Assembly: GCA_029251465.1 (NCBI GenBank)
Contig: JAQXDI010000007.1
Coordinates: forward strand, 1 to 64,000
Reading direction: 5' to 3'
Length of the DNA stretch: 64,000 nt
Source of the DNA: Ascidiaceihabitans sp.
GTDB lineage: Bacteria > Pseudomonadota > Alphaproteobacteria > Rhodobacterales > Rhodobacteraceae
Shown: piece by piece, positions 4,394 through 41,130 of the stretch
Layout of the letters: each line of letters starts with the position of its first letter
How positions within the stretch are numbered: the stretch's first letter is position 1
Notes under the pieces: model-generated
Databases searched by the model: none
Seen by the model: the letters and a program-made list of their open reading frames with translations, nothing else
Told to the model about the DNA's origin: nothing
Translations under genes and position numbers: made by a program

Positions 4394-4590
4394 CAGAAAT
4401 CCTCAGATTGGGTGCGCGGGATTTAGCGTACCATCCGCTGATTTACCAGTCATTGCGCAGGGCCATCAGGTCGGGTTCGATGCCTGCAAGTTTCCAATTG
4501 GCGTCAAAATGCGTCGCACAAATTTCACGATCCGTCGCATTTGACCTGATTTTAGGTTGCATGCCGTGCCGCATCCCCCTACCTCTGCCC

Positions 4591-4640
4591 GTGGGACACC
4601 TCTCCCCAACGAGAGGCAATTATCTGTAAGGGTAGCAGCA
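4591..4640 (+). promoter_or_regulatory. serC leader RNA motif (putative cis-regulatory element)
   Basis: Immediately ahead of the serC ATG there is a 6-bp hairpin, CCTCTC at 4599-4604 with GAGAGG at 4611-4616 around CCCAAC, preceded by GTGGGACA and followed by an unpaired AATTATCTGTAAGGG that includes the ribosome site. Position, size and layout match the serC RNA motif described upstream of serC in alphaproteobacteria. The ligand or trigger of that motif is not known to me; the match is by recollection, not by covariance search. The rest of the serB-serC gap (4394-4590) shows nothing else I can name. Confidence 0.6.
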
Positions 4641-39722: not shown

Positions 39723-40145
39723 TTAATCGTCGGGGTCCACGCGGCCACGCATGTTTTTGACTTCGCCGCGCACTTTCTTGGCCTTCAGGCGGCGTTTTTT
39801 CGACCCTAATGTTGGTCGTGTTGCGATCCGGCGTTTCGGGGCAACCAAGGATTTGCGGATCAGTTCGGCCAACCGCTGGCGCACGATGTCGCGATTGCGC
39901 GCTTGGGACCGCGTCTCGTCACACTGCAAAATCAGCGCACCATCCAGCGTCCAGCGTCGTCCGGCCAGCCGTTTCAGGCGCACTTTGACGGGGGCGGACA
40001 ATGACGGGCTACGCTCTGCTTCAAACCGCAATTCCACGGCCGACGACACCTTGTTCACGTTCTGCCCACCGGGACCAGACGCGCGTACAAAGCTTTCGGA
40101 AAGCTCCCAGTCGTGCAGGGTTATGTCATCGTTGATGCGAACCAT
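39723..40145 (-). CDS. arfB: Alternative ribosome-rescue factor ArfB (peptidyl-tRNA hydrolase)
   Basis: 140-residue class-I release-factor-like protein (YaeJ/ICT1) that releases nascent chains from ribosomes stalled at mRNA ends. The catalytic GGQ is at 26-28 (ASGPGGQNVNKV) and the C-terminal tail is rich in lysine and arginine (RPTLGSKKRRLKAKKVRG), as needed to enter the empty mRNA channel. ATG at 40145 with AAGGG upstream. The frame extends to 40250, but those residues would cross the terminator hairpin. The region before it holds the leader described at 40176-40352. Confidence 0.94.
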   Translation of the reverse strand: MVRINDDITLHDWELSESFVRASGPGGQNVNKVSSAVELRFEAERSPSLSAPVKVRLKRLAGRRWTLDGALILQCDETRSQARNRDIVRQRLAELIRKSLVAPKRRIATRPTLGSKKRRLKAKKVRGEVKNMRGRVDPDD

Positions 40146-40175
40146 GCAGCCCTTATACACCTTTGATGAGACACG

Positions 40176-40204
40176 AAAAAGGGCCGCCCAATCATAGGCG
40201 GCCC
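40176..40204 (-). terminator. Terminator just upstream of arfB
   Basis: On the minus strand GGGCCGCC and GGCGGCCC form an 8-bp GC stem with an 8-base loop, followed by TTTTT, ending 30 bases before the arfB ATG. A palindromic CTTTCGAAAG precedes it. Confidence 0.75.
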
Positions 40205-40279
40205 TTTCGAAAGTTTCAGGAGGGATCTCGGTTAGACCGGGTGGATCCACTTGGGCGGTTTACACCGTCATGGGCTGCC

Positions 40280-40336
40280 TTAACGGGCGACCTCCCAAGC
40301 TGTTCCGACACCTCGCTCCAATATCTTCCTCGACAC
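40280..40336 (-). CDS. 18-residue leader-type ORF before arfB
   Basis: GTG-initiated frame ending in TAA: V-S-R-K-I-L-E-R-G-V-G-T-A-W-E-V-A-R. AGGAGG lies 7 bases before the GTG within a 13-base match to the complement of the 16S rRNA tail, so translation initiation should be very efficient. The final codons (W, E, V) encode one arm of a downstream stem, as in attenuation leader peptides. No protein family is recognisable at this size. Confidence 0.5.
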   Translation of the reverse strand: MSRKILERGVGTAWEVAR

Positions 40337-40415
40337 TAGATCACCTCCTTTACATTTGTTGAACTCATTCGTACCGTCGCACAAGTTCCCCGGATCGCAA
40401 AGCCTTTTTTGTGAA

Positions 40416-41039
40416 TTATCCAGCCGCCGCGGTAATACGCGCAGTAATTAGGCGGAACGGGATCAGCGCCAACAGCGCCAAAGTGAGTTTTACAGCCCAG
40501 TCGGCGACCGCCAGCGACACCCACAACGGGGCCATCACGCCGACGCCCAACAAAGGGAGAACTTCGTTGGCCCAAGACACATCATTGGAAGGTTCCAAAA
40601 ACGTCAGCGGCGCGGCAAAGGCGATTGTGAAGAACAACGCGGTGTCGACGGTGGACCCGATCAAGGTCGAAGCCAGCGGTGCTTTCCACCATGTGCCATT
40701 GCGCAAGGCCGAGAAAATACCGACGTCCAGCATTTGCGCGATCAAGAACGCGAGGCCAGAGCCGATCGCGATGCGCAGTGTGACCAGTGGTCCGAATTCG
40801 CCCATGATCTGTGTGCCAACCAGCGAGCAGAACACGCCAACCACAAAACCCGTCAGCACGACGGTGCGCGCAGGGCCGGCCCCGTAAACGCGGTTCATCA
40901 CGTCGGTGACAAGAAACGCGAGCGGATAGGTGAACGCGCCCCACGTCAGCCATTGGCCAAACAAATGTTGCACAAGAATATTTGAGGCCACAACGATGGC
41001 GGCCATGGCAAGAATGCCGGGAAGGTGAATGCGTGTCAT
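40416..41039 (-). CDS. yhhQ: Queuosine-precursor transporter family protein (YhhQ/VUT-1)
   Basis: 207-residue inner-membrane protein with about six helices, matching YhhQ/VUT proteins that import 7-deazaguanine precursors of queuosine. The blocks YPLAFLVTDVMNRVYGAGPAR and ASTLIGSTVDTALFFTIAF are characteristic. ATG at 41039 (MTRIHLPGILAMAAIVVASN) is preferred over the frame start at 41096; its ribosome site is weak. No convincing preQ1 riboswitch is visible upstream. Confidence 0.9.
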   Translation of the reverse strand: MTRIHLPGILAMAAIVVASNILVQHLFGQWLTWGAFTYPLAFLVTDVMNRVYGAGPARTVVLTGFVVGVFCSLVGTQIMGEFGPLVTLRIAIGSGLAFLIAQMLDVGIFSALRNGTWWKAPLASTLIGSTVDTALFFTIAFAAPLTFLEPSNDVSWANEVLPLLGVGVMAPLWVSLAVADWAVKLTLALLALIPFRLITARITAAAG

Positions 41040-41130
41040 GATTTTGATCCGTTTTACAAGGTAGCGGAGAACTCGGCCTGCACCATGCAGACGCACGGTC
41101 TATAGGCGGGGTTGTCGGACGGCGCAAGAG

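Follow-up and report, generated by a model that had tools for sequence, protein, structure and literature searches.

A probable independent small RNA of Rhodobacterales with a translated micro-ORF and a self-locking Shine-Dalgarno sequence

We propose that the intergenic region between yhhQ and arfB in Ascidiaceihabitans sp., located in the 64,000-nt stretch of DNA analysed here ('the window'), probably encodes a ~190-nt small RNA with its own transcription start and a Rho-independent terminator, which carries a translated micro-ORF and a Shine-Dalgarno sequence (SD) able to lock itself, rather than a dedicated arfB attenuator. The element is most likely the Rhodobacterales form of an RNA that is found across Alphaproteobacteria and is represented in Rfam so far only by the Caulobacter sRNA CC2171. 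A sequence-only reading of the same DNA had favoured control of arfB by attenuation, but had also allowed that the region might be a separate small RNA or encode a separate small protein; it is this alternative that fits best, and we accordingly rank a translation-coupled small RNA or mRNA first and arfB attenuation low. The 13-base SD, GTG ORF, anti-SD, stem across the end of the ORF and T5 terminator noticed in that reading were all found in place on the minus strand, and the element and its neighbours comprise the following parts (window coordinates):

40,176–40,365, minus strand: putative RNA gene as a whole, in the yhhQ–arfB intergenic region
40,372–40,400, minus strand: promoter-like site, with −35 TTGCGA (40,400–40,395), a 17-nt spacer and −10 ACGGTA (40,377–40,372)
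~40,365, minus strand: predicted transcription start, placed from the promoter-like site
between the −10 and the SD, minus strand: lead-in TTCAACAAATGT, read from the sequence
40,339–40,351, minus strand: super Shine-Dalgarno AAAGGAGGTGATC, antisense to the 3′ tail of 16S rRNA
40,280–40,336, minus strand: 18-codon GTG ORF VSRKILERGVGTAWEVAR with TAA stop, read from the sequence
40,244–40,300, minus strand: inner stems P2 (CUUGGG:CCCAAG) and P3 across the stop codon (CCGUUA:UGACGG), with compensatory changes
40,218–40,227, minus strand: anti-SD GATCCCTCCT, which masks the SD (helix P1), with the pairing conserved in relatives
40,176–40,207, minus strand: Rho-independent terminator with T5, in nearly all homologues
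40,416–41,042, minus strand: yhhQ, queuosine-precursor transporter (TIGR00697, 94 bits against a cut-off of 51; PF02592)
39,723–40,145, minus strand: arfB, ATG at 40,145 (NCBIfam NF006718, 177 bits against a cut-off of 100)

The 13-mer AAAGGAGGTGATC, separated from the GTG of the ORF by two nucleotides (TA), occurs nowhere else in the draft genome (3.32 Mb), in which ~0.1 copies are expected by chance. The window RNA is predicted to be unusually stable, with a minimum free energy of −84.9 kcal/mol as compared to −58.2 kcal/mol for shuffled sequences (z −6.1). The window copy of the promoter-like site is a weak match and not the best-scoring site of the scan, and was placed by comparison with a relative (L162). 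In Rhodobacterales relatives, counted from the AAAGG block, a TTG recurs around −49/−48 and a −10 around −27, and the distance is similar in other orders; this comparison shows the putative promoter to be conserved. Elsewhere in the window (4,589–4,640, plus strand) lies a serC leader RNA (Rfam RF00517, 71.8 bits).

To examine the fold, we used an alignment of 36 Rhodobacterales elements (A1), in which the nested fold is made up of P1 (SD:anti-SD), P5 (a start-codon hairpin), P4 (GUCGG:CCGGC), P2, P3 (spanning the stop codon) and the terminator stem. Across the 41 pairs of A1, 92.5% of the cells are paired and 108 double-sided changes were counted against 35 in shuffles, with none of 500 shuffles as high (here, as in all shuffle and swap statistics below, the relatedness of the sequences is ignored); sliding the partners resulted in far fewer double-sided changes. 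With 87 sequences the figures are 93.5% and 259 against 73, in an alignment that was fitted to the model and leans towards it. P1 is paired in 98.4% of cells in the 36 sequences and in 98.7% in 87 Rhodobacteraceae, and the SD pairs better with its own anti-SD than with swapped partners (p=0.00035). Since the SD strand hardly varies – its core is invariant in A1 – P1 is backed mainly by one-sided, pairing-compatible changes: nearly all changes on the anti-SD side keep the pair. Compensation at column 20, the base after the SD core, was considered as further support for pairing: C20 has a G opposite in 3 of 3 cases and G20 has a C opposite in 25 of 28, yet a C is also opposite A20 in 47 of 55, which leaves the support weak. 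P2 and P3 carry compensatory changes on both sides, with one P2 pair occurring as AU, UA, GC and CG across genera, and the terminator stem shows such changes in 10 of its 13 pairs. P5 showed no double-sided changes in A1 and a p of 0.05 for own versus swapped strands; closure of the start codon by this small hairpin is probable. Among 61 other-order elements, an SD partner is predicted in each, and the helix joining the start side to the terminator side is more stable with own than with swapped strands (−15.0 versus −10.3 kcal/mol, p<5e-5). The SD:anti-SD helix, the stop-codon stem and the terminator that had been noticed in the single sequence are thus conserved in relatives. The GGATC/GATCC hairpin suggested to compete for the same bases is present in the window (palindrome GTGGATCCAC, ~40,250–40,241), but the surrounding stretch is rich in indels and the hairpin is not conserved.

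Coding conservation of the ORF also holds among relatives in start, length and stop. The start is GTG in 36/36 elements of A1, gaps are absent all the way from the start of the SD to the end of the stop codon, as opposed to 52 gapped columns after the stop, and the stop falls at codon 19 in 35/36 (TAG 17, TGA 10, TAA 8). TGG was never seen at the stop in A1 (p 2.4e-4 if the two columns are independent). In the family sample, which includes the window, the ORF has 18 codons in 80 of 86 loci, and the stop type has changed ~26 times on the YhhQ tree; that the length is held despite these changes suggests that translation is selected.

It is less clear that the peptide is what matters. A small mRNA whose only function is an 18–26-residue peptide, its synthesis limited by the fold, would account for the conserved start, frame, length and stop, and for the single-codon conservation of residues in Rhodobacterales (L 33/36, E 36/36, V 33/36, G 33/36, T 34/36). 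However, conservation of the same block extends to its nucleotides, very rare codons included, and peptides from different orders are alike only in their first residues, with little in common beyond. In A1, variation at third codon positions only slightly exceeds that at first and second positions, and AGA makes up 116 of ~1,430 codons in the ORFs (~80 per thousand) as compared to 1 of 2,140 (0.5 per thousand) in seven genes of the window. The small third-position excess and the odd codon usage suggest that the peptide itself may not matter, and we regard a peptide-only role as unlikely, though the strongest of the competing explanations. In the Rhodobacterales micro-ORFs of A1, the very rare AGA (at codons 3 and 8) is strongly used, and so is ATA, as in tRNA-depleting minigenes; such codon usage might cause pausing or peptidyl-tRNA drop-off. 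In elements of other orders (L002–L031 and others), CAT, AAT/AAC or GAT is frequent at the second to fifth codons; these codons are read by queuosine-modified tRNAs, and the Rhodobacterales element lies behind a queuosine-precursor transporter gene; this link of early codons and yhhQ may be a coincidence.

The SD block extends beyond a normal SD, and in most relatives ~17 nt are antisense to the 16S tail. The 16S genes of four Rhodobacteraceae end in GCGGCTGGATCACCTCCTTTCT, and the block in its common form, GAAAGGAGGTGATCCAG, complements CTGGATCACCTCCTTTC exactly over 17 nt. The window block differs from this form by a T for C, which yields a G-U pair, and by a T for the leading G; the duplex with the 16S tail is predicted at −26.9 kcal/mol for the window, with a median of −32.8 kcal/mol. 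A full-text search for the 13-mer AAAGGAGGTGATC returned mostly 16S primer papers. The length of the antisense, together with the listing of the Caulobacter relative as an sRNA in Rfam, could be taken to indicate a purely non-coding sRNA that binds 16S rRNA or anti-SD-like targets through this block, the ORF being incidental. We find this improbable: the stop codon has stayed in frame through its many changes of type. That the start varies only between GTG and ATG across elements also speaks against it, although weakly, as the search pattern (RTG) itself imposes this restriction. At three loci (L118, L138 and L180) this super-SD precedes ORFs of 55–57 residues with signal-peptide-like starts, seemingly exported, which suggests that the ribosome site is used by other small genes too.

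The sequence-only reading had translation of the ORF decide whether arfB is transcribed, i.e. a cis-acting attenuator in which leader translation chooses between terminator and read-through. The gene arrangement lends this some appeal: arfB is the downstream gene, in the same orientation, in 71 of 86 Rhodobacteraceae loci, an adjacency that weighs against independence of the element from arfB, the end of the terminator stem is 12–50 nt from the arfB start codon in 37 of 69 cases, and the stop codon sits within a conserved stem. However, the element keeps its anatomy in the 15 of 86 loci without adjacent arfB, and it also occurs without arfB in other orders. The presence of arfB has undergone ~12 gains or losses on the YhhQ tree; the element is found behind yhhQ in Paracoccus denitrificans, P. 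indicus, P. shandongensis, Szabonella and Rubrimonas while the arfB that was fetched lies elsewhere, and in Hyphomonas the element is on the strand opposite to arfB. In other orders the element is flanked by differing, unrelated genes, and no constant neighbour gene was found across orders; arfB stands beside it outside Rhodobacterales only in L087/L095, L129 and L145, of which L087/L095 were fetched through arfB and are thus biased. Moreover, no covarying antiterminator was detected (own −14.5 versus swapped −14.8 kcal/mol, p 0.92), and the micro-ORF peptides contain no runs of one residue.

The arfB start itself also argues against attenuation. In the window, TATAAG lies just upstream of the arfB ATG. 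Among 58 Rhodobacterales arfB genes, A is found at −11 in 32 (p 1e-9), with A/T at −12 and C at −1, and the 69 arfB genes with the element upstream have A at −11, A/T at −12 and C at −1/−2, with SD-like bases in only 6 and none in the other 63. For the arfB nearest to the element, TA falls within −14 to −10 in 18/36, as compared to 1–3 in control places; no clear −35 box for arfB was found. Leaderless messages are frequent in Caulobacter, with 375 given in the genome paper (PMC4117421). The −10-like box, the scarcity of SDs and the C at −1/−2 suggest that transcription of arfB starts at its own ATG, and arfB is probably a leaderless transcription unit of its own. A start for arfB between the terminator and its ATG, which the sequence-only reading had named as counting against attenuation, is thus indicated by sequence features. 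The distance from the terminator stem to the arfB ATG peaks at 31–35 nt in many genomes, which would place the terminator T-run where the −35 of a leaderless arfB promoter would be. Overall, we hold an arfB attenuator to be improbable. That the element is the tail of the yhhQ transcript is more improbable still: the gene immediately before the element, in the same orientation, is yhhQ at 83 of the 85 Rhodobacteraceae loci that could be assessed, but the spacing between the promoter-like site and the SD block is almost constant, even in orders whose elements have neighbours other than yhhQ.

The independent small RNA that we favour is widely distributed. The pattern AAAGGAGGTGATC-N0-4-RTG occurs in 78 of 385 genomes of Alphaproteobacteria. 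In a sample of the phylum it was found in 48 of 86 genomes within the class versus 7 of 213 from other classes, none of the 7 with the canonical two-base spacing. Within Rhodobacteraceae, a slightly looser pattern gave matches in 122 of the 149 genera sampled, a few of them at other sites. While no Rfam family matched the element at gathering score, RF01867 (CC2171) matches the window end to end with 32.3 bits (E 3.9e-5), mainly through the 5′ block and the terminator, and its genome-wide scan picks out the element in the window's genome and in three other sampled Rhodobacteraceae. RF01867 matches at E<=0.1 were found in 82 of 289 alphaproteobacterial genomes, the window included, the weakest being partly chance; 9 of the 289 score above the gathering cut-off. 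Conversely, R1, a covariance model of the Rhodobacterales form, matched most of the other-order elements over the full length of the model (best 56 bits). The suhB/mmgR sRNA family (RF00519) reached 22 bits against a gathering score of 41, with only the 3′ part and the terminator aligned. One genome (G012) contains two elements (L172 and L173) with different ORFs.

The window RNA and CC2171 have in common the 5′ block CAACAA..G AAAGGAGGUGAUCC.GUGUC, a GTG at the same place, a similar length and a G+C-rich terminator, which in both directly follows the folded body; over the RF01867 block AAAGGAGGUGAUC..GUGUC the window equals the consensus except for CC changed to CU. In contrast, the middle of the window RNA is unrelated in sequence, and the closing helix of RF01867 (CAUUGUC/GACAAUG) is absent from the window and A1, its place being taken in Rhodobacterales by SD:anti-SD and neighbouring helices. 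The anti-SD follows the ORF in the window RNA, whereas in CC2171-like forms the SD partner is inside the ORF, often as CUGGAUC..GCCUCC, resembling the 16S end. As the 16S tail determines the sequence of the SD block, the likeness may be partly convergent; common descent is favoured by the promoter spacing, TCAACAA lead-in, RTGTC start, length and terminator that the two share. We therefore consider the window element a probable diverged relative of RF01867, built on the same plan; it is not filed under that family because it scores below the gathering cut-off (75 bits) and lacks the closing helix. The literature searched yielded no function for CC2171 or for sRNAs complementary to the anti-SD; the Caulobacter genome paper describes two earlier ncRNAs, which could not be linked to a name, as translated (PMC4117421).

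How might such an RNA work? In the nascent RNA the SD would be open and a ribosome could load; the anti-SD lies ~120 nt downstream of the SD, and once it is transcribed with no ribosome holding the site, the RNA would lock and fall silent. In agreement with this order of events, the SD is predicted to be unpaired at a median of 57% in nascent RNA before the anti-SD, as compared to 2% in the full RNA. If ribosomes load early, once or a few times, before the RNA locks, the state of the RNA would be a record of ribosome engagement. What serves the cell may be the peptide, the capturing of a ribosome as such or a surface of the RNA that is exposed in one of its states; release of the 16S-like anti-SD is a further possible use. 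Taken further, the RNA would be a sensor of free 30S subunits, in which the 16S antisense competes with the internal anti-SD: the latter imitates the 16S 3′ end in many orders (CUGGAUC..CCUCC), and 30S binding would free this imitation to act on the SDs of other messages. We consider this extension a long shot; if true, it would tie global translation to ribosome supply by RNA.

An antisense to 16S longer than an ordinary SD, combined with a built-in lock and kept over much of the class, points to an undescribed coupling of RNA state to ribosome engagement, and a tempting story of arfB control is removed as probably wrong. Type I toxin mRNAs are small mRNAs with a self-masked SD. The window RNA similarly has a short ORF locked by a long-range anti-SD, but its peptide is short, charged and does not obviously resemble a membrane toxin. 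The dual-function leader sRNA rnTrpL of Sinorhizobium meliloti (PMC10117765), another alphaproteobacterial RNA, is likewise small, contains a translated micro-ORF and ends in a terminator; however, rnTrpL is leaderless and derives from the trp attenuator, whereas the window RNA has a strong SD, a promoter-like site and no constant downstream gene. Finally, E. coli arfA, controlled by trans-translation (PMC10107115), is also a rescue-factor gene with control at the RNA level, but there the control feature is in the arfA message itself, while the window RNA is separable from arfB.
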